Assembly (NCBI GenBank): GCA_001784175.1
Contig: MFPR01000004.1
Location: forward strand, 434,001-498,000
From: Candidatus Lindowbacteria bacterium RIFCSPLOWO2_12_FULL_62_27
GTDB taxonomy: Bacteria; Lindowbacteria; 2-12-FULL-62-27
DNA: 64,000 nucleotides
Direction of reading: 5' to 3'
The translations under genes and the position numbers were made by a program. Positions 29,140 through 45,046 of the stretch are shown here, piece after piece. The notes beneath the pieces were generated by a model. The model saw only the letters and a program-made list of their open reading frames with translations, ran no database searches and had not been told where the DNA came from. The first letter of the stretch is position 1. Every line of letters starts with the position of its first letter.

Positions 29140-30104
29140 GAAACGCGCGCCCCAAGAGAAAACTCGCGCGCCCCCATGTTTTGATCACCGGCGGAGCCGG
29201 CTATCTGGGATCGATTCTCACGCGGCAACTCCTCGATCAGGGCTTCAAGGTCACCGTGCTCGATAATTTCATGTACCGGCAGGACAGCCTGCTGGAAGCA
29301 TGCGCCCATCCCGATTTCGCCGTCGTGCGCGGAGACTGCCGGGACGCGCCGCTCATGAGGTCCAGCCTGAAGGGCGTGGACGTGGTGATTCCCATGGCCG
29401 CGCTCGTGGGCGCGCCCGCGTGCGACCGGGACCGTTCCGCCGCGGTCCGCATCAACCGCGACGCGGTCCGGATGATCTGCAGGGAGATGTCCCCTGCGCA
29501 ATGGCTGCTTTTCCCCACCACCAACAGCGGCTACGGCGTGGGAGAGAACGGCAAGTTCTGCACGGAAGCGTCGCCCCTCCGTCCCATCAGCCTGTACGGG
29601 GTGACGAAGGCCGAGGCGGAGGCGGCGGTGATGGAACGCCGAAACTCGATCAGTTTCCGGCTGGCCACGGTCTTCGGAGTCTCGCCCCGGATGCGGATGG
29701 ACCTTCTGGTGAACGATTTTGTGTGGCGTGCACTGACCGACCGGTATCTGGTGCTGTTCGAAGGCCATTTCAAGAGGAATTACATCCATGTCCGGGACGT
29801 GGCCAAAGTGTTTCTGCACGGACTGAATCGCTTCTATTTCATGAGGGGGCAGGTGTACAACGTGGGCCTGGAGGACGCGAACCTCTCGAAGCGGGAACTC
29901 TGCGAACGGATCCGGGCTGTGATTTCCGATTTTGTCTTTTTCGAATCACCGATCGGGGAGGACGCGGACAAGCGCAATTACATCGTGTCGAACGCCAAAA
30001 TCCTCAAGACCGGGTTCCGGCCGGACTGGGATCTGGACCGGGGAATCCGGGAACTGGTCAAGGCCCATCTCATGCTGGGAAATGTCCGTCACGCCAACGC
30101 CTGA
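29082..30104 (+). CDS. NAD-dependent epimerase/dehydratase (extended SDR)
   Basis: An extended-SDR nucleotide-sugar enzyme of about 340 residues. The Rossmann motif is HVLITGGAGYLGSIL, then VVIPMAALVGAPACD, the catalytic triad region PTTNSGYGVGE and SLYGVTKAEAE (Tyr-x3-Lys), and YNVGLEDANLSK late. It probably epimerises, dehydrates or reduces an NDP-sugar. The start is uncertain: GTG 29082 overlaps the transketolase subunit by 58 bases, and no ATG or GTG occurs between there and the domain start (about residue 32). It lies between the split transketolase and a large GT-B gene. It may act on the product of the transketolase, which is inference. Confidence 0.78.
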   Translation: MDEFSKRRRGVRQKGGGPIRNARPKRKLARPHVLITGGAGYLGSILTRQLLDQGFKVTVLDNFMYRQDSLLEACAHPDFAVVRGDCRDAPLMRSSLKGVDVVIPMAALVGAPACDRDRSAAVRINRDAVRMICREMSPAQWLLFPTTNSGYGVGENGKFCTEASPLRPISLYGVTKAEAEAAVMERRNSISFRLATVFGVSPRMRMDLLVNDFVWRALTDRYLVLFEGHFKRNYIHVRDVAKVFLHGLNRFYFMRGQVYNVGLEDANLSKRELCERIRAVISDFVFFESPIGEDADKRNYIVSNAKILKTGFRPDWDLDRGIRELVKAHLMLGNVRHANA

Positions 30105-32214
30105 AGGCGCAGCCCGACCCGGCGGCGGAACCGGCCGGCGAATCATTTACGTCGATGAGCTGAACGCCTTTTCCGCCGCCTGGCTGGCCCGGCATCGCGG
30201 GACGGTTTCCGGTATCTATTACATCGACGTATCCGGATGGATGAAACGGGTTCTCCCCGTGTTTCGCCGTGTGTTTCTGCGTGGCACGCCCATCCTCCCC
30301 CTTGACTTTTACATGGGCGACATCCGCACGGAACGTGGAGAGAACCTCTTCATCAAGATCTCTTTCGGGGATATCGGAAAATTCCACGGCCGGATGGTCC
30401 GCGACCATCTGGACCACGATCCGCTGTGCCGGATGTTCGCACGCCGGTTCGGCGCGGCCGAAATTTCGCTGTACGTGAAAATAAAAACCATGCGCGCGCT
30501 GCGAAGATACAATTCGTATCTCTACGCCGCCGCCTGGCATGCCCGGTCCCTGCCCGCCAATCCGCCCGCGGACCCCGGCTTCCTCCTCTCTCACTTCTAT
30601 TCCGACCTCCTCGCCGGCCACGCGATGTCGCTCGGCCTGCGGGTGACCGCCTACACAAATTTCTCCCGGCTGTTCTCGCGATGGATCCGGATTCTCAAGC
30701 GACTCCTCTGGCCCGTGCTGTCCCTGCGCGGCCTGACGCAAAAAAACGCCGGCCCGCGCCCGGCCGCGCCCATTCTGGCGGCGGGATTCAACGGCAAGTA
30801 CATCACGTTTGATCCGTCGGTTCGAAGCGATTTTTTCTGGCTCATTCCCTCGTCCCTGCCGAGGTCCAGGGTCATGATCTGCTTCCATCGGCATGACTAC
30901 CCCGTGACCGCCGAGATGGTGGACACGCTGAGGTCGGCCGGCATGAATTTCGTGGCCTTTTCAGAGTCCGCGCGGGTGGATCCCAGGGTACCTCTGTTTT
31001 CTCCCGGCCGGAGGGCCGCGTGGGATCTGGCCGTCTGGAATGCGCGGCTGGCCGTCCGGGTGTTGACGGCGATGTTCAGCGGCGCTGTTTCAAGTTTCTA
31101 TCTTGACTTGTTCGCGGATTTTGTCCGGCACTACGCGTGGTGGGGCGATTTTTTTCGCCGATACGGGGTGAGCGTCTACATCAACATCAACGATGCCTCC
31201 GACGATTCCGTACCCTTTCATCTGGCCCTCAAGGCCGCGGGCGGCGTCAGCGTCAGCTACCAGTTTTCCGCCCACAGCCTCAACCACAGCCCGGAAACCC
31301 TGATCCTGCCGATCTGCCGCGACGTCTTTTTTTCGTTCGGGCCCTATTACCGGCCTCTCCTAGACTCCGTGCATACAGCGATCGGCCACGGCGTCTATAC
31401 GGGTTACATCACCGACCAGGCCTTTGAGTTGGTGAAGGAAAGATCGCGGGGATACCGCGAGCGGCTTCAGCGGGCCGGGGCGAACTTCATTGTCGCATTT
31501 TTCGACGAAAACTCTTCCGATGACCGGATGAGAATGGTTTCCAACCGGAGAATGACCGGGGTTTACCGGCGCTTTCTCGACGCAGTCCTTTCCGACCCCA
31601 CGCTGGGACTCATCCTGAAACCCGGCTATCCGGGCACATTGTTCAAACGCCTGCCCGACATCCGGCCCCTCGTGGATCGCGCCCGTTCGACGGGCCGGTG
31701 CCTCCTTCTGGACGAGGGCGTGGTGGTGACGCGCGTGCTTCCGACGGAAGCCGCCCAGGCGGCGGACCTGGCCGTCGGGTTTCTGTACAGCGGAACAGCG
31801 GCGATGGAGTCCGTCCTCTCGGGCACGCCGACGGTTTATTTTGATTTTGAGAATCTCTTTGATCAGCCCGAGTACCAATGGCCGGCTCGGATCAGCCTCT
31901 CCGAGGCCCCAAGTGCCGGCGTCTCCGACGCCGGCCGGATCGTCTTCAACACGTGGGAGGAACTTTGGACGGCCATCCAGTCATTTCGGCGGGAGGCCCG
32001 GTCACGGCCGGATTTGAGGCGGACGATTCCTTTTCTTTCGCAGAAAGATCCCTTTCAGGACGGGCGGGCGGCGGAGCGCATGGGCGAGTATCTGTCGTCG
32101 CTCCTTATGTGCCTCGAACGGGAAGAGCCGGCGGCCGGGGCCGTGGCGTGGGCGAACCGGAAATTTTCGGAGAAATGGGGCGCGGACAAAATCGTTTCGC
32201 GTGCCGTCAGGTGA
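30082..32214 (+). CDS. Large GT-B-like protein (paralogue of 12462-14570) with an in-frame repeat insertion
   Basis: A 710-residue paralogue of the 12462-14570 protein, sharing YVDELN, RSDFFW, PRSRVMICF, GYITDQAF, FFDENSSDD, LILKPGYPGTLFKRLP, LPTEAAQAAD, VGFLYSGTAAMESVLSG and QKDPFQDGRAAERM. The C-terminal part looks like a GT-B nucleotide-sugar lobe; function otherwise unknown. ATG 30082 lies about 12 codons before the first conserved residues region and overlaps the epimerase end by 23 bases. Residues 604-619 (ISLSEAPSAGVSDAGR) are absent from the paralogue, which runs WSPRVVYETWEDLW where this protein has WPAR, the insert, then IVFNTWEELW. The insert is encoded by a copy of the double-hairpin repeat. 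The stop overlaps the convergent GT2 gene by 8 bases. Confidence 0.72.
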   Translation: MSVTPTPEGAARPGGGTGRRIIYVDELNAFSAAWLARHRGTVSGIYYIDVSGWMKRVLPVFRRVFLRGTPILPLDFYMGDIRTERGENLFIKISFGDIGKFHGRMVRDHLDHDPLCRMFARRFGAAEISLYVKIKTMRALRRYNSYLYAAAWHARSLPANPPADPGFLLSHFYSDLLAGHAMSLGLRVTAYTNFSRLFSRWIRILKRLLWPVLSLRGLTQKNAGPRPAAPILAAGFNGKYITFDPSVRSDFFWLIPSSLPRSRVMICFHRHDYPVTAEMVDTLRSAGMNFVAFSESARVDPRVPLFSPGRRAAWDLAVWNARLAVRVLTAMFSGAVSSFYLDLFADFVRHYAWWGDFFRRYGVSVYININDASDDSVPFHLALKAAGGVSVSYQFSAHSLNHSPETLILPICRDVFFSFGPYYRPLLDSVHTAIGHGVYTGYITDQAFELVKERSRGYRERLQRAGANFIVAFFDENSSDDRMRMVSNRRMTGVYRRFLDAVLSDPTLGLILKPGYPGTLFKRLPDIRPLVDRARSTGRCLLLDEGVVVTRVLPTEAAQAADLAVGFLYSGTAAMESVLSGTPTVYFDFENLFDQPEYQWPARISLSEAPSAGVSDAGRIVFNTWEELWTAIQSFRREARSRPDLRRTIPFLSQKDPFQDGRAAERMGEYLSSLLMCLEREEPAAGAVAWANRKFSEKWGADKIVSRAVR
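31888..31940 (+). repeat. Double-hairpin repeat, copy A (in-frame inside a gene)
   Basis: Hairpin 1 is GCCTC (31895-31899), loop TCC, GAGGC (31903-31907). A CCCAAGT spacer follows. Hairpin 2 is GCCGGCGTC (31915-31923), loop TCC, GACGCCGGC (31927-31935). CGGAT occurs at both ends. Comparison with the paralogous gene shows a 48-base (16-codon) insertion at 31891-31938 that keeps the reading frame. Confidence 0.85.
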
Positions 32215-33286
32215 CGTTGGTTGGATTCGTGACGGCTCTGTAGACGGGCAGAAAGTCGTTGTGATAGACGCAGGTCGGCCGCGCGAGGTCATTCAACGAC
32301 AATTCGACAGCGCTCGGCGGGATGAAAGAAAATAAACGGTGCCCGGTCTTCAGCCGGCCCAGCATGCGCCGCAACTTCTCCCGGGCGCGGGCGCGGAATC
32401 CATTGAATCGTTGTGGCGCATACAGCCTGTCCCATTCGTGGGTTAAATGCCTTCGCACCACCCACCACAGATACTTTTTCGCGATCTCGTCCCCTTCACG
32501 GATCGACAGACCATCCTGGCGGGCCAGCTCTTCCGCCAGACAGCGCCGAACTCCATCGCTCTCCTCCCGCCAGCGGGGTGTGCTGTACCGTTCGAAGGGT
32601 TCCTGCGCGGCGAGAACAGAGTCCTGCCCGGGATGCGCCTGACACAGCTTGTAGAGTTTGTCCAGACGCTTGACCTTGCCGCGGATGACGGGAATACACG
32701 TGGTCAGGAGCTCGCCGAACCAGTTTCCAAGCCCGAATTCGATCGTCCGGGCGTATCCGTCCCGGATGTCTTCCGTCCGGTGGATCGAGTTTCCTGTAGC
32801 AAACCAATGGCTCATGAAACGGCCGAACCGGCCGGCGCCGGTGTCGTCTTCGATGTCAGCATACTCATAATGAACCATCCACTGGAACCGCCCATGGGCA
32901 CGGCCGGAATCGAGCCCGAACATGAGACAGAGGCCGTGCGCGACCCGGTACGCCGGATGCCGGTCCAGAAAATCCATGCAGAGATCCATCGTTTCAGGCA
33001 CGTAAAAATCGTCGTCGGCGGCGTACATGCAATAGGGGGTCCGGACATGCTCCAGTCCCCTGGCGATGCAATCGTTGAACGAGGCCCCCGGTTGGGCGAG
33101 ATGGGTCACGTTCAGCCGTTCGCGATACCTCCGGATCACGGAACCGATCGCGTCAAACGGTTCCGGATCGCTGGCATCCGAAATGACGATCGGATGCGAA
33201 AACGCCGCGGATGCATAATAGGTCAGGAACCGCGACAGGAACTGCGCGCGATTCCGCGTTGAAACCACAAGGGTCAACCGTTCCAT
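32207..33286 (-). CDS. Glycosyltransferase, GT2-like (TIGR00180 type), paralogue of 42862-43953
   Basis: A 359-residue GT-A enzyme: LTLVVSTRNRAQFLSRFLTYY, IVISDASDPEPFDAI, CMYAADDDFYVPETMDLCMDFL (metal-binding acidic cluster) and IHRTEDIRDGYARTIE. It shares extended near-identity with the 42862-43953 protein (for example GRFMSHWFATGNSIHRTED and LSLNDLARPT), so one gene is a duplicate of the other; divergence concentrates in a few patches. ATG 33286 is chosen because the paralogue aligns from here and a promoter's -10 ends 9 bases upstream. It is divergent from a WbqC gene and converges with the large GT-B gene (8-base overlap). Likely cytoplasmic-face glycan assembly. Confidence 0.8.
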   Translation of the reverse strand: MERLTLVVSTRNRAQFLSRFLTYYASAAFSHPIVISDASDPEPFDAIGSVIRRYRERLNVTHLAQPGASFNDCIARGLEHVRTPYCMYAADDDFYVPETMDLCMDFLDRHPAYRVAHGLCLMFGLDSGRAHGRFQWMVHYEYADIEDDTGAGRFGRFMSHWFATGNSIHRTEDIRDGYARTIEFGLGNWFGELLTTCIPVIRGKVKRLDKLYKLCQAHPGQDSVLAAQEPFERYSTPRWREESDGVRRCLAEELARQDGLSIREGDEIAKKYLWWVVRRHLTHEWDRLYAPQRFNGFRARAREKLRRMLGRLKTGHRLFSFIPPSAVELSLNDLARPTCVYHNDFLPVYRAVTNPTNVT

Positions 33287-33295
33287 CGAAAGCCG

Positions 33296-33325
33296 ACTTA
33301 ACCTTCCGAACAAAAGGCTTGTCAA
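33296..33325 (-). promoter_or_regulatory. Putative promoter, leaderless spacing, for the 32207 glycosyltransferase
   Basis: On the minus strand TTGACA (33325-33320), an 18-base spacer and TTAAGT (33301-33296) end 9 bases before the ATG at 33286. The sequence is closely similar to the pseB promoter (45085-45057): both read CTTGACA, then a GC(C)TTTTG-containing spacer, then TTAAGT. Confidence 0.55.
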
Positions 33326-33348
33326 GTTTCATTCGCTTGTGCTTTCAT
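33320..33348 (+). promoter_or_regulatory. Weak putative promoter for the second WbqC unit
   Basis: TGTCAA (33320-33325), 17 bases and TTTCAT (33343-33348) end 6 bases before the ATG at 33355. The stretch TTCGCTTGTGCTTTCAT resembles TTCGCCTGTGCTTCCAT upstream of the first WbqC gene at the same distance from its start codon. The -35 overlaps that of the divergent glycosyltransferase promoter. Confidence 0.3.
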
Positions 33349-33354
33349 GGATCC

Positions 33355-34134
33355 ATGCCAGTCGAATCGACGCATCCCTTCATTCTGACGGCGCACCAAC
33401 CCGTGTATCTGCCGTGGCTGGGGCTCATGCACAAAATCGCGCTGTCGGACATGTTCTGCCTGTTTGATGACGTGCAGTACTTGAAAAAGGACTGGATGAA
33501 TCGAAACAGGATCAAGACGGCCAACGGCCCGGTCTGGCTGACCGTGCCGGTTCTGAGCAGGGACCATTACCATTTGAAATGCAGGGACGTGAGGATCCAT
33601 GCCGCCCTGCCGTGGCGGAGGAAACACTGGCGTTCGATTCTGAACGCGTACCGGAGCGCTCCCTTCTTCAGGAGATACGCCGATTTTTTTGAAGACCTCT
33701 ATTCAAAGGAATGGACGCATCTCGCGGATTTGAATCAACATATCCTCCGGTATCTGCTCGACGCCTTTTCGATCAAAGTGGCTTGGGTTCGGGCGTCCGA
33801 CTGTTCTTTTGACGGAAAGGGGTCTGATCTCGTGCTGGACATGTGCCGCCGCCTGAATGCGGACATCTATGTGTTCGGCGCCTTGGGCCGAACCTACGCG
33901 CGGGTGGAGGATTTTGAAAAGGCCGGAATATCCGTTTATTTCCAGGACTATCGGCACCCCTCCTATCCGCAGCTCGGGGGGCAATTCTCGCCGTCCATGA
34001 GCGCGATCGATCTTCTCTTTAATCACGGCCCGGCCTCCTTCGAGATTTTGATGGAAGGCAATCACAGCCGGGAACACCTCGTCCGCGCCGCCGGGGTTCT
34101 GCCCCTGACGGAAGCCGGGGCGGGACGCCCATGA
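33355..34134 (+). CDS. WbqC-family protein (second copy)
   Basis: A 259-residue WbqC-like protein: FILTAHQPVYLPWLGLMHKIALSD, DDVQYLKKDWMNRNRIKT, WLTVPVLS, and HPSYPQLGGQFSPSMSAIDLLFNHGP. It has the same domain as the 14673-15518 protein without the N-terminal extension, supporting a late start for the family. It heads a nonulosonic-acid-type operon (epimerase, DegT aminotransferase, NeuB, acetyltransferase). The family is recurrent in O-antigen and flagellin-glycosylation loci; chemistry unproven. The stop overlaps the next ATG by 4 bases. Confidence 0.8.
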   Translation: MPVESTHPFILTAHQPVYLPWLGLMHKIALSDMFCLFDDVQYLKKDWMNRNRIKTANGPVWLTVPVLSRDHYHLKCRDVRIHAALPWRRKHWRSILNAYRSAPFFRRYADFFEDLYSKEWTHLADLNQHILRYLLDAFSIKVAWVRASDCSFDGKGSDLVLDMCRRLNADIYVFGALGRTYARVEDFEKAGISVYFQDYRHPSYPQLGGQFSPSMSAIDLLFNHGPASFEILMEGNHSREHLVRAAGVLPLTEAGAGRP

Positions 34135-35018
34135 GAATCCTGGTCACCGGCGCCGGAGGCTATTTGGGAAGCGCCTGCGTGGGCCATCTTGCCGGGCGCC
34201 ATGAAGTGACGGCGGGCGGGCACAGTTCACCGGAACGGCCGGACGCCGTCATTCACATGGCGTTTCGATTTCCTAAAGACAACTCCGCGCGGGCCGAACT
34301 TGAAAACCAAACCGCGTTGCGCGCCATGATTGATTTCTGCATGGCCCGGAATGTTTCGCGATTCATTTTTCCGTCCACGTATGCGGTGTATCCCTGCAGC
34401 GAGCGGACCGCGGTGGAATCGGACGCCCTGTTTCCAGAATCCGAATACGCCCGCGGAAAGGGGACGGCGGAAAGGATGCTGCAGGAGTCCGGCCTTCCCC
34501 ATGTGATCCTTCGTCTGACGCACGTCTATGGCCGGGGCACCGGCGTCGGCGACGAGGGCGGCGTCATCCTGCAGTGGCTGGATCGGGCCATGCATGGAAA
34601 GGACATCGAAGTGATCGACGGAGAAACCATCGAGCGGGACTATATCCACCTTCGTGACGTCCTGGCGGCCGTCGAGGCGTGCCTTGAAAGAGAGCCGGCC
34701 ATGGGACGCGTCTACAACATCGGAAGCGGCGCCGGCGTGACGCTTCTGGATCTCGCGCGACAGATCGCGCGGATCGCCGGCGGGGAAACCGGCCGGGACG
34801 TTTCGGTGCGGAATCGCCGGAGCGCAACCCCCGTGATCTGGCGGCGGCGCGTGGACCTCCGGCGGGCGGAGGAGGAATTGGGCTTTTATCCGCGGGTCAA
34901 CCTCGTGGAAGGCTTGAAAGAGATGGCGGCGGCGCGCACGACGGGACTGCCGGATCAGCGCCTCCGGCGCCCCAAGTGCCGGCGTCTCCGACGCCGGCCG
35001 GAGGCGGCCGCAAGATGA
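34131..35018 (+). CDS. NAD-dependent epimerase/dehydratase with repeat-derived C-terminus
   Basis: A 295-residue extended SDR, short for the class. Motifs are RILVTGAGGYLGSACVGHL, AVIHMAFRF, RFIFPSTYAVYPCSE, EYARGKGTAE (Tyr-x3-Lys), THVYGRG and RVYNIGSGAGVTLLDLARQIA. It probably converts an NDP-hexose (4-epimerase, dehydratase or reductase). The final 20 or so residues, a run of Arg, Pro and Lys, are encoded by copy B of the double-hairpin repeat (34951-35002) read in another frame, so the natural C-terminus has been replaced. ATGA overlaps at both ends couple it to the WbqC and aminotransferase genes. Confidence 0.78.
   Translation: MRILVTGAGGYLGSACVGHLAGRHEVTAGGHSSPERPDAVIHMAFRFPKDNSARAELENQTALRAMIDFCMARNVSRFIFPSTYAVYPCSERTAVESDALFPESEYARGKGTAERMLQESGLPHVILRLTHVYGRGTGVGDEGGVILQWLDRAMHGKDIEVIDGETIERDYIHLRDVLAAVEACLEREPAMGRVYNIGSGAGVTLLDLARQIARIAGGETGRDVSVRNRRSATPVIWRRRVDLRRAEEELGFYPRVNLVEGLKEMAAARTTGLPDQRLRRPKCRRLRRRPEAAAR
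34951..35002 (+). repeat. Double-hairpin repeat, copy B (gene 3' end)
   Basis: Hairpin 1 has a GCGCC stem strand (34959-34963), loop TCC and GGCGC (34967-34971), changed on both strands compared with copy A (GCCTC/GAGGC). The CCCAAGT spacer and hairpin 2 (GCCGGCGTC, TCC, GACGCCGGC; 34979-34999) match copy A. It begins CGGATCAG and ends CGGCCGGA, just before the epimerase stop and the aminotransferase start. Confidence 0.85.
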
Positions 35019-36157
35019 GGATCAAGGGCGCGCATCCTGCATTTTCCGAGGGTGAAATAGCGTCGATCACCGGCGAGATCGCCGAGGTCCTTCGCTCGGG
35101 CCGGCTGATTTTGGGAAGCCGGACAGAGCGGTTTGAAGCAGCCTTCGCCGAATACGTTGGAACCCGGCATGCCATCGCCGTCAATTCCGCAACGACCGCG
35201 CTCCAGATCACCCTCCAGTATCTCGATGTCAGGGACCGCGAGGTCGTCCTTCCGACCAACACATTTCTGGCCACGGCCAACGCCGTCCTGTACGCGGGGG
35301 GACGACCGGTTTTCGGCGACATCGAACCGCAGTCTCTCGCCCTGTGCCCGGACAGCCTGATCCGGAACATCACGCCGCGCACAAAAGGCGTCATCCTCGT
35401 CCATCTGGCCGGATTCATCAGCCCGCATCTGGAAGACATTCAACAGATATGCCGGGACCGGAGGTTGTTTTTGATTGAAGACGCGTCGCATGCTCATGGG
35501 GCCCTTTACAAGGGTTCAAAGGCGGGGTCGCTGTCGTTCGCCGGATGTTTTTCCTTTTATCCCACCAAAGTCATGACGGCGGCGCTGGGCGGCATGATCA
35601 CGACAAACGATGCGGCCTTGGACCGCTACGCCAGAAGCCTTCGGCATCACGGCCAGACCGACCGGACGCTCGACGTGCTGACCCGGTTCGGGAACGACTG
35701 GCTTCTCGACGAAGTGCGATCCGTGATCGGCTATCATCAGTTGAGGGGGCTTGAGAATGCAGTTCTCAGGCGGAATGCCCTGGCGCGCCGGTACACGGAA
35801 CGATTGAAGGACGTGAAGGGCATTCAAGTATTTGAAGTTGCGCCTCACATCAGGCACGCCTACTATAAATTCCCGGTTTCCGTCGATCCGCCCATTTCCC
35901 GTGACCATCTGATGCGGCGGTTGAACGAGGAACATGACGTTGAGACCGGTGTACTCTATGATCCGCCCTGTCATCTCCAGCCCATTGTCATGGAAACGTT
36001 CGGCACGAAACCGGGTGACTGCCCGGTTTCCGAATCGATCCTCCGGCGTGAACTCTGCCTGCCGATGCATGTGAGCCTCACGGAAGAGGACGTCGATCGC
36101 GTGGTGGGAATCCTGTCCGCCGAAATCGATCTCCGGATGGACATGGCGGTCGCCTGA
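35015..36157 (+). CDS. DegT/DnrJ/EryC1 (PseC-type) PLP sugar aminotransferase
   Basis: A 380-residue aminotransferase placing an amino group on a keto-deoxy NDP-sugar. Evidence is GRLILGSRTERFEAAFAEYVG, HAIAVNSATTALQITL, LPTNTFLATANAVLYAGGRPVF, LIEDASHAHGA and the PLP lysine in FSFYPTKVMTAALGGM (Lys185). It lies immediately before NeuB and near a WecD-type acetyltransferase, which fits the PseC step (4-amination of UDP-4-keto-6-deoxy sugar made by PseB, encoded at 43988-45046). The ATG (35015) overlaps the epimerase TGA; a frame opening at 34976 lies inside the repeat and is rejected. A LegC- or PglE-type role is an alternative. Confidence 0.82.
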   Translation: MRIKGAHPAFSEGEIASITGEIAEVLRSGRLILGSRTERFEAAFAEYVGTRHAIAVNSATTALQITLQYLDVRDREVVLPTNTFLATANAVLYAGGRPVFGDIEPQSLALCPDSLIRNITPRTKGVILVHLAGFISPHLEDIQQICRDRRLFLIEDASHAHGALYKGSKAGSLSFAGCFSFYPTKVMTAALGGMITTNDAALDRYARSLRHHGQTDRTLDVLTRFGNDWLLDEVRSVIGYHQLRGLENAVLRRNALARRYTERLKDVKGIQVFEVAPHIRHAYYKFPVSVDPPISRDHLMRRLNEEHDVETGVLYDPPCHLQPIVMETFGTKPGDCPVSESILRRELCLPMHVSLTEEDVDRVVGILSAEIDLRMDMAVA

Positions 36158-37212
36158 TGGGCGGCGTCAGAATCTCGGATCGTGCGATCGGGCCGGGGCA
36201 TCCCTGTTTTGTGGTAGCCGAGATCGGCACGAACCACGATCGGAACATTCAAACGGCCCGGACCCTCATCGATGCGGCGGCGACGGCCGGCGTCGACGCG
36301 GTCAAATTTCAATTTTATCACGGCGAAGATGTCGTCACGCCCCGGGCCACCGCCGGCGAGTACGGCCTTCACAGGATGTATCCCGGCCTTCACAGAATGG
36401 TGGACATCTACAATGGCCGGCTCCGGACCCCCCGGGCGTGGTTTCCCGAACTGAGCGACCGTGTGAGAAGGCTGGGAATGATTCCGTTCGCCGCGCCGCA
36501 CTGCATCGACTGCGCGCAGTTCGCAGTGTCGCTGGGCATGCCGGCCTTCAAAGTCGCGTCCGTTGAAATCACGAACCTGCAGTTTTTGGAGGCGCTGGCC
36601 GCATTTCGAAAACCGATCATCCTCTCCACCGGCTTCGCCACCTCACGCGAGATCGCCGAGGCCGTTCGCGCGGTTCGACGCGCCGGCCACTCGAAATTGA
36701 TTCTCCTGCACTGCGTTTCCGACTATCCGACTCGGCCGCAAGACGTCAATTTGCAATTCATCCAAACGCTCCGCCGGCGATTCGGCGCACCCGTCGGATT
36801 TTCCGACCATACGACAGGCTTGGCCGTGTCGTTCGCGGCCGTCGCGCTGGGGGCGAGCGTGATCGAACGCCACGTGACACTGGATCGAAACCGGAGCGGC
36901 CCCGATCATCCGTTTGCCCTCGAGCCGCAGATGCTGGTGGAACTCGTCCGGGGCATCCGCGACATTCATCGGGCGATGGGGAAGGCCGCCAAGAAACTCA
37001 CCGCATCCGAGAGGGACAAAAGAAAACTCTTCTTCCGCAGCATCGTCGCGTCGCGGCACATTCCCAGGGGCCAGAAGATCCGCGCCGCCGACCTTGATCT
37101 CAAGCGGCCGGGCACGGGTCTGCCTCCGAAAATGCTGCGCACCGTCATCGGCCGCAGAGTGAGGAGAGACATCCGGCAATATGATCTCATTGAAACCGGT
37201 ACGCTCGTCTGA
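36157..37212 (+). CDS. neuB: NeuB-family nonulosonic acid synthase (sialic/pseudaminic acid synthase)
   Basis: A 351-residue PEP-condensing synthase making a nine-carbon sugar acid from an N-acyl hexosamine. The TIM barrel begins FVVAEIGTNHDRNIQTARTLID, with AVKFQFYH, KVASVEITNLQFLEALA, ILSTGFAT, LHCVSDYPTRPQDVNLQFI, GFSDHTTGL and IERHVTLDR. The C-terminal SAF antifreeze-like domain has FFRSIVASRHIPRGQKIRAADLDLKRPG. Length and domain order are standard. It shares 1 base with the aminotransferase stop. With PseB, PseC-type, PseH-type and PseG homologues in the window, a pseudaminic-acid-like product (PseI role) is favoured over neuraminic or legionaminic acid. Confidence 0.9.
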   Translation: MGGVRISDRAIGPGHPCFVVAEIGTNHDRNIQTARTLIDAAATAGVDAVKFQFYHGEDVVTPRATAGEYGLHRMYPGLHRMVDIYNGRLRTPRAWFPELSDRVRRLGMIPFAAPHCIDCAQFAVSLGMPAFKVASVEITNLQFLEALAAFRKPIILSTGFATSREIAEAVRAVRRAGHSKLILLHCVSDYPTRPQDVNLQFIQTLRRRFGAPVGFSDHTTGLAVSFAAVALGASVIERHVTLDRNRSGPDHPFALEPQMLVELVRGIRDIHRAMGKAAKKLTASERDKRKLFFRSIVASRHIPRGQKIRAADLDLKRPGTGLPPKMLRTVIGRRVRRDIRQYDLIETGTLV

Positions 37213-37215
37213 ACC

Positions 37216-38211
37216 ATGAACCTGCCGACCATGCCGGCCGCTCGTGAATTCCAGAGACTGACGCCAGACCGCGCCGAGGCCCTGGTGCCTTTCATCAAGG
37301 CCCATCGAAGCATTTATGACGGACAATTCAACCCGGATGTCCCGCCCGACGTGCTGGGTGACTATTTCATTCATGACCTCCGGCAGAAATTCTCGGAGGG
37401 CGTGTGGGCGGGGCTGATGCATGAACCGGCAGGGGGGGGCTTCGCGGCAGCGGTATTTCATCACAGCGCATGGGACACCAATTTTTTCGGATTTCGGATG
37501 GATCGTCTCGATTATCTGTTTGGCTCACATGAAAACGCCATGGATGCTGTTCTTTGCCGATACGCCGGCCTTTCGGAGAAGGAGGGCGTCCGCCACATCT
37601 CTGCGCGGGTAAACATGTCTGACCGTCGGACCGCGAGCGTTCTGCGCCAAAACGGCTTTGCTGAGGTGTGCGTAAAGTCCCTCTGGCGCCACTCGCTGGC
37701 GGATCCAGCGGCGGTTCAGGTGCCATCACCCCACATTCGAGCATTTTCTCCGCAAGACGGCGACGATGTCCGAGTGCTGGCGGCGACGCTGGCCGGGGCC
37801 GGCAGATTCTCCATGGACGGACGCTTTGATCCGAAGCGCGTCCGGGAGATGTATGAGCAGTGGGCGGTCCACCTGTGCGAAACGGCGCCGGCGCAGGTTT
37901 TGGTGGCGCGCGTGCGGGGTGCCACGGCCGGATTTTTGGTGTTTACGGTTGGCGTGCCCTTGTACGGTGCGCCGGACGTTGCCGATTTGAAGCCGGGCGT
38001 TGTCACGCACGTGGCGGTTGATCCGTCCCTGAGGGGGCGTGGGTTCGGCCGGGCGCTGATTGTCGCAGGATTGAAGCGCATGTGCGAGCTGGGCGCCCGC
38101 GCGGCGTACGCGGCAACCGCGGCGGGAAACGCAGCCGGCGCCGCCGCTTTTCAATCGGCGGGATTCCGCCCGGTAACATCGCATTGGGATTTCCATCGAT
38201 GGCTCGACTGA
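37216..38211 (+). CDS. WecD/PseH-like amino-sugar N-acetyltransferase (tandem GNAT)
   Basis: A 331-residue protein with two GNAT-like halves. The N-terminal half has the WecD/RffC-type WDTNFFGFRMDRLDY and RTASVLRQNGF; the C-terminal half has the full acetyl-CoA loop HVAVDPSLRGRGFGRALIVAG and AGAAAFQSAGFRPV. WecD-type enzymes acetylate 4-amino-4,6-dideoxy NDP-sugars, which is the PseH step of the pseudaminic acid pathway. ATG 37216 is 3 bases after the NeuB stop. The stop overlaps the PIG-L start by 13 bases. The acetylated position is inferred from context only. Confidence 0.8.
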   Translation: MNLPTMPAAREFQRLTPDRAEALVPFIKAHRSIYDGQFNPDVPPDVLGDYFIHDLRQKFSEGVWAGLMHEPAGGGFAAAVFHHSAWDTNFFGFRMDRLDYLFGSHENAMDAVLCRYAGLSEKEGVRHISARVNMSDRRTASVLRQNGFAEVCVKSLWRHSLADPAAVQVPSPHIRAFSPQDGDDVRVLAATLAGAGRFSMDGRFDPKRVREMYEQWAVHLCETAPAQVLVARVRGATAGFLVFTVGVPLYGAPDVADLKPGVVTHVAVDPSLRGRGFGRALIVAGLKRMCELGARAAYAATAAGNAAGAAAFQSAGFRPVTSHWDFHRWLD

Positions 38212-38924
38212 TTCAGGAGGGGGTGCGTCCCATTCTGGTCATCGCGGCCCACCCCGACGACGAGTCACTGGGCTGTGGCGGGACCATCGCGCGTCACAGC
38301 CGCCAGGGACACGACGTGCATCTTCTCATCCTCGGCGAGGGCGCCACGTCCAGAAGGCGCCATCGCACGGGCGGACGGGGCGCAGCAGCCAGGGAAGTAA
38401 AAGAATTGGACAAGGCCGTCCGCAAAGCGGCGCAGGTCCTGGGAATCAACGAGGTGCATCGCCGATATTTTCCCGACAACCGCTTTGACAGTCTGGACTT
38501 GCTCGAAATCGTCAAAACGATCGAAGAGGTCATCGAGAGGATCGGCCCCGGCCGCGTCTACACGCACAGCGCCGGGGATCTGAACCTCGACCACCGGATC
38601 GTTCACCAGGCCGTCCTGACGGCATGCCGCCCCCAGAACGGGTGCCCCGTCCAGACCATCCTGGCCTTCGAAATCCCGTCGTCCACCGAATGGCAGGGGC
38701 CTGGGAGTCACACGCCATTTTGGCCGCAAATCTACATGGACATTAAAGAGACACTGCCGTTAAAACAGAAGGCGCTCAGTTGTTATCCGACAGAAGTCCG
38801 ACCGTATCCCCATCCCCGGTCGCCTGAATCAATCGAGATCATCGCAAGACGTTGGGGCCTGAATGCAGGTCTGGAAGCCGCCGAGCCGTTCATGTTGATC
38901 CGGGATATCGTGACGTCTCCATGA
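38199..38924 (+). CDS. PIG-L/LmbE-family N-deacetylase
   Basis: A zinc-dependent deacetylase of about 241 residues: VIAAHPDDESLGCGGTIARH (metal motif AHPDDE) and a second metal motif HSAGDLNLDHRIVHQA. Family members deacetylate GlcNAc-containing lipids and small molecules. ATG 38199 overlaps the acetyltransferase gene; an internal GTG at 38223 sits right behind AGGAGG but too close to be its site. The gene is followed by the asparagine-synthetase-like gene with an ATGA overlap. Paired with that amidotransferase, it may expose an amine or alter an N-acyl group before another modification. It is a stand-alone version of the deacetylase domain in 1728-4010. Confidence 0.85.
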   Translation: MARLIQEGVRPILVIAAHPDDESLGCGGTIARHSRQGHDVHLLILGEGATSRRRHRTGGRGAAAREVKELDKAVRKAAQVLGINEVHRRYFPDNRFDSLDLLEIVKTIEEVIERIGPGRVYTHSAGDLNLDHRIVHQAVLTACRPQNGCPVQTILAFEIPSSTEWQGPGSHTPFWPQIYMDIKETLPLKQKALSCYPTEVRPYPHPRSPESIEIIARRWGLNAGLEAAEPFMLIRDIVTSP

Positions 38925-40813
38925 AGCTCCTAATAAGGTGCGGCGTTCCTCCGGACGGCGCTTCTAAATCGCAGGCTGGACTGAAGGAGCTTCATCGCTC
39001 AGACCGATTCTGCATCGAGGGGGATACAGACATCCGGCGGTTCCGGGACGCCCTGGGGTCGAGCCTTTTTGTGGGAGGTCGATTCCTTGGGGTGGATTCG
39101 GAGGCGGCCAAGATCGTTTTCCAGAAGGGCATGGAGGCCGGCCGCGAGACTCTGGAAGGCCGCTATTTCCTCGTCCTTGTCCGGCCGGACGGCTCATGCG
39201 AAGTTTGCACGGATCGGTTCGGCCAACAGGAACTATATTATGAAGAAGACTCGGAGGGCTTGGTCTTGGCTACGGATATTTCGCTCCTGCCCCGCCGCGC
39301 TCAGCGCCATCACCAGCCGGCCCTTGCGCACGCGCTTTGCGTCTACGGCTGGCGTCCTCCCAAGCGTCACACCTTTTGGGAGGGTGCGCGGCGTCTGGGG
39401 ATCGACCAGGTTCTTCGAGTGGAGGGTGGCCGCGCGCATATCCGGGACATTCCGTTCCAGCCGCTCAAGACCGGCAATTATACCGAACACCATCTGAACG
39501 CGTATGCGGATTCCCTGCTCAATGCCATTCGAGTCCGGGGATCGGACCATGGAAATGTCGTTTACCTCTCGTCCGGGTGGGACTCGACCGCGATTCTGGC
39601 GTGCCTGGTGAAGCTTTTTGGCGCGGGGAAAGTTCGAGCGATCACCGGGCGGATCATCTACTCGGATCGAAGCGGCATCATCAACCGGTTTGAAACGGAC
39701 CGGGCACGGGCGGTCGCCGATTACTATGGGATCAAGCTCGACATCGTCGACATTGACTACCGACGGGAGGGGCCCGACCTCTTGGAGCGGTTGCAGCCGT
39801 TGATGCAGGCGCACCAGATCGGCAGTATTTCGTTGCTCACTCAGGAACGCTTCGCCGCGCACGTGGCTGCAACCTCGAACGGCGACGAATCGGTCTTTGC
39901 CGGAGAAATCAGCGACGGAGCGCACAATCTCGGATTCAGCCAGTTCACCACGATCTTCCACCCGGTTCATGAGTTTCGCGAGTACAGTGACAAGATGGCC
40001 AGCTATCTGTTCGGGCCCACGTTTCTTGGACGCTTGCAAGATGGAACGTACTTCGAGGACCCTGTTTACCAGTTGCTTCGGTCCCGCCTACCGGACGCCG
40101 CCTTCGATGCGCCTGCCAACGGCAGCCGGGCCGGCCACACCATGCATCTGCTGTCCAGTTTCTTTCTCCGTCTCAGACGCTTTCCGCTCTGGTCCTTGAG
40201 CAACAGCCGGGTCCTCACCGGGGACGGTCGCATGGCGTATCTTCGGGAAATGGAAACCACCTATCTGAAGCGGGCCGCCGAAGAGGCGACGGTCGAAACA
40301 CTCTACTCGTGGTATCTTTGGCTTTACAACTCGTTCCACTGGCAGGGTTCGACGGTCCTTTCGTTATACCTGACCGCTGAGGCGCAGGGCCTCAGGATGG
40401 AGATGCCGTTCTGGGACGGCCGGATACAGGAGTTTCTGTCTGCCATGCCCGAGTCTTGGGGCCGGGGGCTCGACCTCAATCCCACCAAATATCCGCTCAA
40501 ATGGACGCTGAAACATCGGGTCGATTACCCCTTCCATCTTCAGCGCGGCCCCCATTCCTATATTTACGACGTCCAGCCGGGATTCAGTCTGGTCGCCGAA
40601 GTGTTGTACGATTCCGCGTTTTCTCCCTATTTCAGGAAAATCCTGGCACGACGGCAATATCGGGAGGTGCTGTCACCAGAAGTGTTCGATCTGGAGCATA
40701 TTGACGGAATTGTCCACCGATATCAGGAGGGAACGGAAGTGCGTGGAGAGGAACTCAGCGAACTTTTGGCCCTATGCCAGCTCTCAGCCGCAGGATGGTT
40801 CGCCTCGCGATGA
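38921..40813 (+). CDS. Asparagine-synthetase-like (AsnB family) protein without N-terminal Cys
   Basis: A 630-residue protein with the two-domain AsnB layout. The N-terminal half resembles a class II glutamine amidotransferase (EGRYFLVLVRPDG, CTDRFGQQELYY), but the residue after Met1 is Lys rather than the catalytic Cys2, so ammonia release from glutamine is unlikely. The C-terminal half has an ATP-pyrophosphatase PP-loop, LSSGWDSTAILACL (218-222 region; usual SGGxDS), and FAGEISDGAHN. It would adenylate a carboxylate and add an amine from another source, for example to amidate a uronic or nonulosonic acid or form an amidine. Start ATG 38921 overlaps the PIG-L stop; the stop overlaps the radical SAM start. 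Confidence 0.82.
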   Translation: MKLLIRCGVPPDGASKSQAGLKELHRSDRFCIEGDTDIRRFRDALGSSLFVGGRFLGVDSEAAKIVFQKGMEAGRETLEGRYFLVLVRPDGSCEVCTDRFGQQELYYEEDSEGLVLATDISLLPRRAQRHHQPALAHALCVYGWRPPKRHTFWEGARRLGIDQVLRVEGGRAHIRDIPFQPLKTGNYTEHHLNAYADSLLNAIRVRGSDHGNVVYLSSGWDSTAILACLVKLFGAGKVRAITGRIIYSDRSGIINRFETDRARAVADYYGIKLDIVDIDYRREGPDLLERLQPLMQAHQIGSISLLTQERFAAHVAATSNGDESVFAGEISDGAHNLGFSQFTTIFHPVHEFREYSDKMASYLFGPTFLGRLQDGTYFEDPVYQLLRSRLPDAAFDAPANGSRAGHTMHLLSSFFLRLRRFPLWSLSNSRVLTGDGRMAYLREMETTYLKRAAEEATVETLYSWYLWLYNSFHWQGSTVLSLYLTAEAQGLRMEMPFWDGRIQEFLSAMPESWGRGLDLNPTKYPLKWTLKHRVDYPFHLQRGPHSYIYDVQPGFSLVAEVLYDSAFSPYFRKILARRQYREVLSPEVFDLEHIDGIVHRYQEGTEVRGEELSELLALCQLSAAGWFASR

Positions 40814-42363
40814 TGAGAGGCGCGTCGAAACTGGACTTGCTGATCGTCTCGCCCGGCGACCACAAGATCATTTACCAGGACCTGGCGGCGGAATACGCCG
40901 CGCTCGAACCGCCCATTTGGGCGGGGCTCATTGCAAACTTTGCGAGACACAAAGGCTGCAGCGTCGATATCATCGACCAGCAGGCCGAGGGCCTGACGCC
41001 GGGGGATATCGTCCGGAGGGCCTTGGACGACCGGCCGAGGCTCGTGGCCATCCTCGTCTATGGCCAGCAGCCGTCCGCGTCCACTCAAAACATGACCATG
41101 GCCGGCGAGATCGCGGCGCAATTCAGTGAACACGCGCCGGAATTCAAAACGATCCTGATCGGCGGCCACGTCTCCGCCATCCCGGAACCCACGATGCGGG
41201 AGACGGCCTGCGATTTCGTATGCGAGGGGGAAGGCCCCTGCACCGTGGATGCGCTCCTTCAGCTTGAGAACATGAACGATCCCTCGGACTACTCCAAAGT
41301 CCCGGGTCTTTGGTACCGGCGCGATGGACACATCCTGAACACAAACCCCGCGCCGGTCGTGCCGGAAAAAGAACTGCCGGCCACCCTGCCCGGCATCGCA
41401 TGGGACCTTCTGCCGATGCATGCCTACCGGGCGCACAACTGGCACTGTTTCTCGCACATCCACGACCGCAGCCCCTATGCATCGATGTATACGAGCCTCG
41501 GCTGCCCGTTCAGATGCACCTTTTGCTGCATCAACGCACCCTTCGGATCGGCCGGACTGCGATGCTGGGATCCAAAATTCGTCATCACGGAACTCGACCT
41601 CCTGGCCAACCGCTACCGCGTCAAGAACATCAAAATCGCCGACGAGATGTTCGTCTTGAATGAACGCCACGTGCTGGATCTGTGCGACCTCATCATCGAA
41701 CGGGGCTATGAGTTTAACTTCTGGGCATACGCGCGCGTCGATACAGTCAAGGACAGGTTTCTGGAGAAACTCAAGAAAGCCGGATTCAACTGGCTCTGCC
41801 TCGGGATCGAATCGAGGAGCAACCATGTTCGCGCAGGGGTCGTCAAGGGACAGTACAGCGAAGAGGACATCTACGATACGGTGCAGCGCATCAAGAACGC
41901 CGGCATCCATGCCTTCGGCAACTACATCTTTGGCCTGCCGGACGACACCTGCGAATCGATGCAGGAAACGCTGGATCTGGCGGTCGACCTCAACTGTGAG
42001 ATGGCCAATTTTTATTGCGCCGCCGCCTACCCGGGATCCAAACTCTACGAGATGGCGAAGGCGAAGGGTTGGCGCCTCCCCGAGAAATGGCATGACTTCT
42101 CACAGCATTCCTACGGCCAGTTGCCGCTGCCGACAGAGACGCTTCCCGCAGGAGAAGTTTTGGCGTTTCGGGACAAGGCCTGGCAAATCTATTTCACCAA
42201 TCCCCGGTATCTCAATCTGATTCTGGAAAAATTCGGCCGGGAGGCGGTGGATCACATCGCCAAGCTGACCACGTATACGCTGCGTCGAAAGCATGCGGCG
42301 CCCCTGCGCGTTGAACCGTGTCTGCGAAAGGACGCGACGGAAGTGAAGGGCGTCAGCGTCTGA
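40810..42363 (+). CDS. B12-binding-domain radical SAM protein
   Basis: A 517-residue radical SAM enzyme. Residues about 8-150 form a cobalamin-binding-like domain (LLIVSPGDHKI, IWAGLIANFARHKGCSVDIIDQQ, TILIGGHVSAIPE). The [4Fe-4S] motif CPFRCTFC uses Cys232, 236 and 239. The barrel includes EMFVLNERH, WAYARVDTVKD, LCLGIESRSNHVRAGV and GNYIFGLPDDT. Such proteins methylate or rearrange carbons, or act on lipids and sugars. ATG 40810 overlaps the AsnB-like stop (ATGA). It ends the plus-strand operon and converges, with an 11-base overlap, on the X-domain gene; a second enzyme of this class (60087) carries an X domain at its own C-terminus. Confidence 0.82.
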   Translation: MMRGASKLDLLIVSPGDHKIIYQDLAAEYAALEPPIWAGLIANFARHKGCSVDIIDQQAEGLTPGDIVRRALDDRPRLVAILVYGQQPSASTQNMTMAGEIAAQFSEHAPEFKTILIGGHVSAIPEPTMRETACDFVCEGEGPCTVDALLQLENMNDPSDYSKVPGLWYRRDGHILNTNPAPVVPEKELPATLPGIAWDLLPMHAYRAHNWHCFSHIHDRSPYASMYTSLGCPFRCTFCCINAPFGSAGLRCWDPKFVITELDLLANRYRVKNIKIADEMFVLNERHVLDLCDLIIERGYEFNFWAYARVDTVKDRFLEKLKKAGFNWLCLGIESRSNHVRAGVVKGQYSEEDIYDTVQRIKNAGIHAFGNYIFGLPDDTCESMQETLDLAVDLNCEMANFYCAAAYPGSKLYEMAKAKGWRLPEKWHDFSQHSYGQLPLPTETLPAGEVLAFRDKAWQIYFTNPRYLNLILEKFGREAVDHIAKLTTYTLRRKHAAPLRVEPCLRKDATEVKGVSV

Positions 42364-42865
42364 AGGCGGGTTTCAGTCGATAATACAGGAGGGCGAAAGG
42401 TAGCGCCAGCGCGGCCAGACACGCCGCGGACAGGGCGCCGGCCATTGCCCGGATTCTGTCCAACACGAATCCTTTCCATGTCACTTGCCTGAAATGTTTC
42501 ACCGGCGCGTGGGAGACGATCCTTGAAACGCCGGCCGCCGTTAAAAAACGGATGATCCCCCCATATCCGCGGCCGTCCACATGGTTGTACGGCACATAGG
42601 CTTCATCGATCCGCTCCCGCCGGAGCCTCTCCAGACACAGCCGGTTCAATCCTCCGTAGGTCATCCACGGCCGGTCATACAGCAGAAAATCAGCTTCCAC
42701 ACCTTCCGATGCCTTGCGGATCTCCTTTTCCGCGGATGGCTGGACAATCCAGATCCACCGGACGCCAGCGTCTCCGACGCCGGCCGGATACCGCACCTCT
42801 TTGAGATACCGAAACAGAGCCAGACACTGCGACAGCGGGGCGGACCGGATCAGCAGGATGTTCAT
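42353..42865 (-). CDS. Stand-alone X-domain protein, possibly membrane-anchored, with in-frame repeat
   Basis: A 170-residue protein of unknown function. Residues 1-120 (starting MNILLIRSAPLSQ, with LRRERIDEAYVPYNHVDGRGYG) match the X domain in the radical SAM protein at 60087 (NILILRSTRMWH; YSNTDGRSFENV) and in 1728-4010. The fold resembles the N-terminal lobe of heptosyltransferase-like GT-B proteins. Residues about 140-165 are hydrophobic (AGALSAACLAALALPFALLYY), probably one membrane segment with a basic end. Eleven residues (YPAGVGDAGVR, about 26-36) come from repeat copy D and are absent from the relatives. The start overlaps the upstream glycosyltransferase stop by 4 bases. Confidence 0.6.
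   Translation of the reverse strand: MNILLIRSAPLSQCLALFRYLKEVRYPAGVGDAGVRWIWIVQPSAEKEIRKASEGVEADFLLYDRPWMTYGGLNRLCLERLRRERIDEAYVPYNHVDGRGYGGIIRFLTAAGVSRIVSHAPVKHFRQVTWKGFVLDRIRAMAGALSAACLAALALPFALLYYRLKPAFRR
42758..42789 (-). repeat. Double-hairpin repeat, copy D (truncated, in-frame inside a gene)
   Basis: Only hairpin 2 remains: GCCAGCGTC (42764-42772), loop TCC, GACGCCGGC (42776-42784), with one A-C mismatch, flanked by CCGGA and CCGGAT. Read on the gene's strand it adds 33 bases (11 codons) between CGG codons, keeping the frame of the X-domain protein. Confidence 0.75.
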
Positions 42866-43953
42866 GGGACGGTTGCTTCGACAGGACGGGTCACGGCTTC
42901 ACAGACGGGCGCGAAGTCGTCGTGATAAACGGAGGTCGGCCGAGCGAGGTCGTTCAACGACAATTCGACGGCGTCCGTCGGGATGAAAGATAACATGCGG
43001 TGGGCGGATTTCAGCCGTCCCAGCATGCGCCGCAACGTCTCCCGGGAGGAGGCGCGAAATCCGTTAAACCGGTGCGGCGCATAGAATCTGTCCCACTCCC
43101 GGCTCAAATACTTTCCCAGCATCCACCAAAGGTATTTTTTCGCAGTCTCTTCCCCTTCCCGGACCGACATACCGTCCTGGCGGGCCAGTTCCTCCGCGAG
43201 GCAACGCTGGACTCCCTCGCACTCGCCCCGCCAGGGGGCTGCGCAGAACCATTCGAAGAGTCCGGGTTCCTGCGAGCCGCGGGCTGAGACCTGGCCGGGA
43301 TGGGCCTGACACAGTTTGTAGAGTTTCTCCAGACGCTTGACCTTGCCGCGGATGACGGGAATGCATGTGGTCAGGATCTCGGCGAACTCATATCCAAGCT
43401 TGCGTTCAATCACGCGGGTGTATCCGTCCCGGACGTCTTCCGTCCGGTGGATCGAGTTTCCGGTCGCAAACCAATGGCTCATGAAGCGGCCTAACCGGCC
43501 GGCGCCGGTGTCGTCTTCGATGTCGGCGTACTCATAATGCGTCATCCACTGGAACCGGCCATGGGTCTGGCCGGAATCAAGCCCGAACATGAGGCAGAGG
43601 CCATGCGCGACCCGGTACGCCGGATGCCGGTCCAGAAAATCCATGCAGAGATCCATCGTTTCAGGCACGTAAAAGTCGTCGTCGGACGCCAGCATGCAGT
43701 AGGGCGTCCGGGCCTGCGCCAGGCCCTGCGCCAGGCAAATGTTGGCGGAGGCCCGCGGATGGGCGAGATGGGTCACGTTCAATTGATCGCGATATCGCCG
43801 GATCATGGAAACGATGGCCTCAAAAGGTTCGGGGTCGCTCGCGTCTGAAATAATGATGGGATGTGAAAAGGCGCGGCCCGCGTAATACGCAAGAAACCGG
43901 GACAGGAACTGTACGCGGTTCCGCGTGGTCACCACCATGGTCAACCTGGGCAT
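42862..43953 (-). CDS. Glycosyltransferase, GT2-like (TIGR00180 type), paralogue of 32207-33286
   Basis: A 363-residue GT-A enzyme almost colinear with the 32207-33286 product: LTMVVTTRNRVQFLSRFLAYY, IIISDASDPEPFEAI, CMLASDDDFYVPETMD, GRFMSHWFATGNSIHRTED and LSLNDLARPTSVYHDDF. ATG 43953 is chosen because the paralogue aligns from there and GGAGG lies 9 bases upstream; a longer frame to 44028 is encoded by the repeat copies at 43967-44065. It lies between pseB and the X-domain gene. The two paralogues may add the same sugar to different acceptors or be a recent duplication for repeat-unit diversification. Confidence 0.8.
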   Translation of the reverse strand: MPRLTMVVTTRNRVQFLSRFLAYYAGRAFSHPIIISDASDPEPFEAIVSMIRRYRDQLNVTHLAHPRASANICLAQGLAQARTPYCMLASDDDFYVPETMDLCMDFLDRHPAYRVAHGLCLMFGLDSGQTHGRFQWMTHYEYADIEDDTGAGRLGRFMSHWFATGNSIHRTEDVRDGYTRVIERKLGYEFAEILTTCIPVIRGKVKRLEKLYKLCQAHPGQVSARGSQEPGLFEWFCAAPWRGECEGVQRCLAEELARQDGMSVREGEETAKKYLWWMLGKYLSREWDRFYAPHRFNGFRASSRETLRRMLGRLKSAHRMLSFIPTDAVELSLNDLARPTSVYHDDFAPVCEAVTRPVEATVP

Positions 43954-43966
43954 GTCCGACAGCCTC

Positions 43967-44065
43967 CGGATCAGCCTCTCCGAGGCCTCAAGTGCCGGCG
44001 TCTCGGACCAGCGCCTCCGGCGCCTCAAGTGTCGGAGTCTCCGACTCCGACCCGACGCCGGCTGG
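43967..44065 (-). repeat. Double-hairpin repeat, copies C1 and C2 (one nested in the other)
   Basis: Plus-strand reading: C1 starts CGGATCAG at 43967 with hairpin 1 GCCTC/TCC/GAGGC, spacer CTCAAGT and the left arm GCCGGCGTC (43994-44002). It is then interrupted in its loop by C2 (about 44004-44053) and resumes with the right arm GACGCCGGC (44054-44062). C2 has hairpin 1 GCGCC/TCC/GGCGC and hairpin 2 GTCGGAGTC (44031-44039), TCC, GACTCCGAC (44043-44051), a fully compensated stem different from C1. The block spans the pseB 3' end; the spacer of C1 supplies the pseB stop codon. Confidence 0.85.
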
Positions 44066-45046
44066 ACAGGCTGCCGTAAGGCTCATCACGTCCGATAGAA
44101 ATTCTTGGGAAAGCCGGATGTCGTTTTGATTGCTGGCGTACCGAAAGCCGCTCTTGACCCGCCGGCCGTTCTTGCTGATGTCACCCAAGGGCGGGAACGC
44201 CGGATAAATCACATAGTGGTCGTCAAACTCGCGCGTGTGCTCGCTTTCGTCCTCCGTGATCAATACCTCATGGATCTTTTCTCCCGGTCGCTTGCCGATA
44301 AATTCGAGCTCGCAGTCCGGCGCGATCAGGCGCGCAATATCCACCACCCGCGTGCTCGCGATTTTCGGAACGAGGATTTCACCGCCATGCATCCGTTCGA
44401 GACAGGTGAGCACGAATTCCACGGCGTTGTCGAGCGACATCCAGAAGCGCGTCATGCGGGGGTCGGTCACAATCAGTTTTCCGCTTTCCCGCTGCTCGAG
44501 AAACAGGGGCACCACGCTTCCGCGGCTCGCCAGAACATTTCCGTATCGCACCACGCTGAACCGCGTCCCCTTCTCCCCGGAATAGACATTGGCCGCGACA
44601 AACAATTTCTCCGCGCAGAGTTTCGTGGCCCCATAGAGATTGACGGGGTGAACCGCCTTGTCCGTGCTCAGGGCGATCACCTTCCGAACGCCCTGGTCGA
44701 TGGCCGCGTTCAGGACGTTCTCCGCACCGATGACGTTGGTCTTGACGGCTTCGATGGGATTGTACTCCAGGGTCGGCACCTGTTTGAGCGCCGCCGCGTG
44801 AATGACGATGTCCACGCCCTGAAAGGCCCGGTCCAAGCGGCTCTTGTCGCGCACATCCCCGATGAAAAATCGGATGGCCGGGTTCCCCACGAACTCCCGC
44901 TGCATCTCCACCTGCTTGAGTTCGTCCCGGCTGAAGATGATCAATTTTTCAGGCAACATTCGGTCGAGGACGAATCTCGCGAAATGTCTCCCGAACGACC
45001 CCGTTCCCCCCGTGACGAGCACCACTCGTCCGTTCAGATCAATCAT
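43988..45046 (-). CDS. pseB: UDP-N-acetylglucosamine 4,6-dehydratase (inverting), PseB-type
   Basis: A 352-residue SDR of the CapD/FlaA1/PseB group, which converts UDP-GlcNAc to a UDP-4-keto-6-deoxy-L-sugar, the first step to pseudaminic acid. Signatures are VLVTGGTGSFGRHF (10-22), SRDELKQVEMQREF, HAAALKQVPTLEYNPIEAVKTNV, STDKAVHPVNLYGATKLCAEKL (Tyr138, Lys142), RYGNVLASRGSVVPLF and MTRFWMSLDNAV. Length and motifs fit the short soluble PseB class, not membrane-bound FlaA1-like forms. The last 25 or so residues (from CPAGVGSESET) are read from the double-hairpin repeat, so the native C-terminus has been replaced. It has its own promoter and heads a three-gene unit. Confidence 0.9.
   Translation of the reverse strand: MIDLNGRVVLVTGGTGSFGRHFARFVLDRMLPEKLIIFSRDELKQVEMQREFVGNPAIRFFIGDVRDKSRLDRAFQGVDIVIHAAALKQVPTLEYNPIEAVKTNVIGAENVLNAAIDQGVRKVIALSTDKAVHPVNLYGATKLCAEKLFVAANVYSGEKGTRFSVVRYGNVLASRGSVVPLFLEQRESGKLIVTDPRMTRFWMSLDNAVEFVLTCLERMHGGEILVPKIASTRVVDIARLIAPDCELEFIGKRPGEKIHEVLITEDESEHTREFDDHYVIYPAFPPLGDISKNGRRVKSGFRYASNQNDIRLSQEFLSDVMSLTAACPAGVGSESETPTLEAPEALVRDAGT

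Follow-up and report, generated by a model that had tools for sequence, protein, structure and literature searches.

A 48-nt repeat with two hairpins on one strand has entered genes of an uncultured member of the Lindowbacteria about 60–80 times, nearly always in frame, and essential genes are among the hosts. The copies very probably represent a single non-autonomous mobile palindrome that tolerates coding DNA. The unit is exactly 48 nt (16 codons) long and follows a fixed plan: CGGRTCAG, a 5-bp hairpin with a TCC loop, CYCAAGT, and a 9-bp hairpin, also with a TCC loop; stem 1 begins with the final G of CGGRTCAG. The first-pass annotation of the window (the whole stretch of 64,000 nt that was analysed) had described five copies sharing a double-hairpin plan. 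All five are present, with refined coordinates, and the overall plan stands, except that the spacer is CYCAAGT rather than (C/T)CAAGT and that the truncated copy has one stem mismatch. That annotation overlooked that the copies are located within reading frames or at their ends, which is evident when they are set beside their host genes:

12462–14570, minus strand: paralogue of the element 1 host gene with an empty site, a gap of exactly 16 residues
30082–32214, plus strand: 710-aa host of element 1, without a Pfam or NCBIfam family
31888–31935, plus strand: element 1, full 48 nt, stem 1 GCCTC/GAGGC, in frame within gene 30082–32214, adding RISLSEAPSAGVSDAG
34131–35018, plus strand: host of element 2, a member of the NAD-dependent epimerase family
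34951–34998, plus strand: element 2, full 48 nt, stem 1 GCGCC/GGCGC, in the C-terminal codons of the epimerase gene, adding PDQRLRRPKCRRLRRR
42353–42865, minus strand: host ORF of the 27-nt remnant, 170 aa, no family
42758–42784, plus strand: 27-nt remnant, hairpin 2 with one mismatch, about nine in-frame codons (AGVGDAGV) added to ORF 42353–42865
43967–44003, plus strand: outer nested element, left part, 37 nt
43988–45046, minus strand: PseB (UDP-GlcNAc 4,6-dehydratase), whose C-terminal tail, including the stop codon, is the nested pair; TIGR03589 is complete before the tail
44004–44051, plus strand: inner 48-nt element, stem 2 GTCGGAGTC/GACTCCGAC, in the hairpin 2 loop of the outer element, no target duplication
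44052–44062, plus strand: outer nested element, right part, 11 nt

Rejoining the 37- and 11-nt parts of the nested pair restores an intact outer copy. The stop codon of the PseB gene arose within the inserted element, through a change of CCAAGT to TCAAGT. None of 100 shuffled versions of the window contained a match to the core of the repeat. The window also holds direct repeats (80–87% identical) at 32229–32896 and 42890–43563, separated by about 10.7 kb on the same strand; the right one is within a TIGR04440 glycosyltransferase gene (42862–43938, minus strand), and the pair therefore looks like a gene duplication inside a surface-sugar cluster. A weak terC RNA match at 39729–39785 scores under the gathering threshold and is probably due to chance.

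The family is larger than the five copies noted at first. The host phylum is represented in the genome collection by three genomes, all incomplete MAGs: that of the window (G000, 4.39 Mb, with the window at C4:434001–498000), a sister genus (G002) and a third genus (G001). A covariance model found 81 matches in G000, about 60 of them full length and free of indels, 43 in G002 and one in G001; among 57 genomes outside the phylum it found no convincing copy (best E 0.0065). The hairpin-2 half, allowing up to three mismatches, occurs at 57 places in the whole G000 genome, vs none for the reversed control pattern. A pattern scan of viral contigs found nothing. An Rfam search returned nothing relevant to the repeat, and the family, which the first-pass annotation did not recognise, is an undescribed one. 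CRISPR was rejected, the copies being dispersed and without spacers, as was an assembly artefact, given that separate genomes carry copies and that orthologous sites are empty. Five G002 loci (L172, L125, L173, L174, L177) have 57-nt copies that form a subfamily of their own, marked by a third hairpin (TCCGCC TCA GGCGGA), two copies standing in tandem at one place, and in G000 an additional perfect 9-bp hairpin (CGCCGGCCG TCT CGGCCGGCG) adjoins an element copy around position 1493 of locus L071 (G000:C1:54753).

The copies lie predominantly inside genes. Using a purpose-written, frame-specific Markov gene caller trained on G000, 75 of the 88 full copies (85%) were placed in predicted genes, 12 between genes and one across a gene end. 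With 91% of the surrounding DNA coding, there is scarcely any avoidance of genes. As a 16-codon insertion, each intragenic copy leaves the reading frame intact. At least 20 host genes have clear Pfam matches, e.g., TrmD, glutamyl-tRNA synthetase, DNA topoisomerase I, squalene/phytoene synthase, prephenate dehydratase, an RND pump, histidine kinases and a CHC2-type primase-like protein. More copies than expected (21 vs 13) fall within 30 residues of a protein end. Relative to the gene, 53 copies have the same and 22 the opposite orientation, a bias mostly accounted for by the frame selection described below.

That the element moves is shown by empty sites. Each of the three genomes has one full-length trmD match, which is filled in G000 (ARR-RISASGAPSAGVSDAG-RICLLCGRYEG) and shows a 16-residue gap in G001 and G002; gltX is filled in G000 (AGSAPPAPQVPASPTP) and has a 16-residue gap in G002. 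Both G000 and G002 carry an insertion in a thioredoxin-like gene, at different sites, and each site is empty in the other genome, at the DNA level too. Solved structures of TrmD, GltX and thioredoxin-like homologues are without the inserted segment. Among the copies compared, G000 and G002 have no insertion site in common, and those insertions are thus younger than the split of the genera.

The flanks define the target as GGC^CGG. The left CGG is conserved in 100% of copies; the right CGG is part of the host site and is conserved in 74%. Copies in tandem meet at GGC^CGG, and nested copies are inserted at T^CC in the loops of older ones, where they display the empty site directly as a plain 48-nt gain. 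A target-site duplication was rejected, because conservation of the right CGG stops at 74% and because the host copy of a nested pair is restored without one. The element ends, CGG...GGC, are not inverted repeats of each other. The lack of a duplication and of terminal inverted repeats, together with the use of target and loop sites, would suit a single-strand HUH mechanism.

Candidate movers are encoded in the same genomes: there are eight Y1_Tnp genes in G000, 10 in G002 and six in G001. Two Y1 clades, A (L037/L144/L146) and B (L040–L042/L148/L152/L156), each with SH-aLRT support of 99–100, are present in G000 and G002 and missing from the element-poor G001, a comparison among three incomplete MAGs. 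The two clade members tested gave a weak C-terminal match to a DnaA-like HTH, as in TnpAREP subclass 2.1, an HTH-bearing subclass that is not known to be associated with REPs (PMC6006769). At 24 Y1 loci, with flanks of about 1.5 kb (shorter at four loci near contig ends), the model found no significant match, only chance-level ones. A link to a Y1 transposase is thus best treated as a hypothesis, conceivable but falling somewhat short of probable, with the two HTH-bearing clades as the candidates.

These observations bear on REPs, which are extragenic, carry a GTAG or CGTC tag and flank their RAYT (PMC3733652, PMC6006769). A REP/REPIN family, mainly extragenic and moved by its own RAYT (TnpAREP), would likewise consist of short palindromic repeats with a 5' tag, and the copy-rich genomes have 8–10 Y1_Tnp genes that could serve as its transposases; yet this origin is improbable and is largely refuted by location, the extragenic copies being the minority. 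Moreover, no Y1 gene with flanks of about 1.5 kb has a copy in them, the consensus has CGGRTCAG and CAAGT and neither tag, and its two unequal hairpins stand in direct order. The first-pass annotation saw a likeness to REP in concept only and proposed looking for an associated transposase or RAYT-like protein; a link to REP elements is not supported, with most copies inside genes and none within about 1.5 kb of a Y1 or RAYT-like gene among the loci with that much flank.

The mobile palindrome is far from indifferent to the frame in which it is read. The intragenic copies (n = 75) fall into frames 0/1/2 as 33/3/17 on the same strand and 15/0/7 on the opposite strand. Two controls for the codon phase of the target motif predict otherwise: a PWM control expects 15/11/13 and 13/12/11, and a GGC^CGG control 16/8/16 and 12/12/10, respectively, with Monte Carlo p <= 1e-5 against both. 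Target codon phase alone was accordingly rejected as the source of the bias. The element is open in five of six frames; the frame that contains a TGA stop has no copies vs about 12 expected, and the Arg/Cys-rich frame has three vs 8–11 expected. The gene caller is unable to bridge a stop, yet with a single copy across a gene end this limit cannot conceal some 12 stop-frame copies. Length variants of 24, 33 and 57 nt accompany the 48-nt form, all multiples of 3, and 13 of these 15 derivatives are inside genes. The absence of the stop frame and the depletion of the Arg/Cys-rich frame suggest that the inserts are probably translated.

The same data weigh on two further accounts. Byps are short hairpin bypass elements of some yeast mitochondria, and an element skipped by the ribosome or removed from the RNA could equally have this size, these hairpins and many copies in coding genes, essential ones included. 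Bypass would, however, lift selection on length and frame; the frame bias and the multiple-of-3 lengths argue against bypass or splicing, and we consider it very unlikely. Equally unlikely is the idea that the repeats spread through selection for the peptide, as useful protein linkers or interaction segments. The peptide types are few and flexible in composition, but the five peptides come from five frames in both orientations, they sit in unrelated host proteins, and conservation tracks DNA pairing instead of any one reading frame.

Pairing is indeed what the copies preserve. In an alignment of 91 copies (63 distinct), standard pairs fill 98.5% of the pair cells, and two-sided changes occupy 83 cells at eight of the 14 pairs of both stems, a level reached in none of 500 shuffles and not by slid partners, which bears out the earlier reading of the stem differences as compensatory. 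Stem 1 occurs in four main forms (GCGCC, GCCGC, GCCTC, GCGTC), each with its complementary partner; for stem 2 there are at least eight such paired forms. Each intact 48-mer tested, when folded as single-stranded DNA, yields the two hairpins (z = -3.8 to -5.0). Wobble is rare, with 10 G-T vs 900 Watson-Crick cells. RNA-level selection on the structure is unlikely, because copies occur in both orientations to genes and G-U intermediates are almost absent; a regulatory or processing hairpin selected in transcripts (a terminator or RNase site), suggested by the stable hairpins and compensatory changes, is the least probable of the alternatives, given also the mid-gene positions and the lack of an Rfam match. 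The pattern fits pairing that is kept in DNA, either by single-strand recognition or by arm-to-arm copying: with template-switch copying, the arms could stay complementary without the structure being recognised. The first-pass claim that covariation implies a selected or recognised structure hence holds as far as the structure is maintained or recognised, whereas pairing by itself does not prove recognition.

For the mobile palindrome, these results suggest the following course. The element would transpose via a single-stranded DNA hairpin, perhaps mobilised in trans by a Y1 (HUH) transposase, and would insert between GGC and CGG, or into the hairpin loop of an older copy, without target duplication. 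A copy entering a gene would add 16 mostly small, flexible residues, e.g., RVSASGAPSAGVSDAG or AGSAPPAPQVPASPTPA, and the gene would stay functional owing to a length that is a multiple of 3 and to the five open frames. More tentatively still, the element may be adapted to protein-coding DNA, combining frame-neutral lengths with five frames that give tolerated linkers, and moved as a single-stranded hairpin, with GGC^CGG and hairpin loops as targets, by an HTH-bearing Y1 transposase encoded away from its substrate.

Several known systems share parts of this behaviour. Rickettsial RPEs are palindromic mobile repeats that sit in frame in unrelated conserved protein genes and are apparently translated (PMC2229807, PMC10969869). 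The first-pass annotation saw a likeness to RPE only in concept; it goes deeper, as in-frame coding insertion is the main biological property of the 48-nt element, too. RPEs are about 100–150 bp long with terminal inverted repeats, whereas the element measures 48 nt (24, 33, 57), has two separate hairpins and no terminal inverted repeat, and belongs to a different, high-GC phylum, with the great majority of its copies in genes. By the published descriptions of RPE length, terminal repeats and host, the element works like an RPE but is apparently separate, and it is much smaller.

In size, GC-richness, hairpins, constrained stems and nested copies, the element resembles the mitochondrial GC clusters (yeast GC42) and the double-hairpin elements of Allomyces, which are about 40 nt, GC-rich, with one or two hairpins, stem constraint and nested or merged copies (PMC4478555, PMC2800124). 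Those are organellar, and GC42 has AG target duplications; the present element is bacterial, makes no duplication and comes in in-frame length classes. Bacterial MITEs such as NEMIS/Correia, ERIC and RUP are small non-autonomous repeats, some with in-frame fusions (PMC2229807), but they are about 100–200 bp long with terminal inverted repeats, several families having target duplications, and the element lacks both.

In the reviews consulted, palindromic repeats that have entered conserved genes in frame on a wide scale are described chiefly from Rickettsia. The element appears to be an independent instance, in a distant genome as large as those of free-living bacteria and with a far smaller unit, and it provides about 75 natural 16-residue insertions in host proteins, including TrmD, glutamyl-tRNA synthetase, topoisomerase I and an RND pump. 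Two old questions are thereby made testable: by what means elements this small move, and how easily proteins take in additional stretches of peptide.
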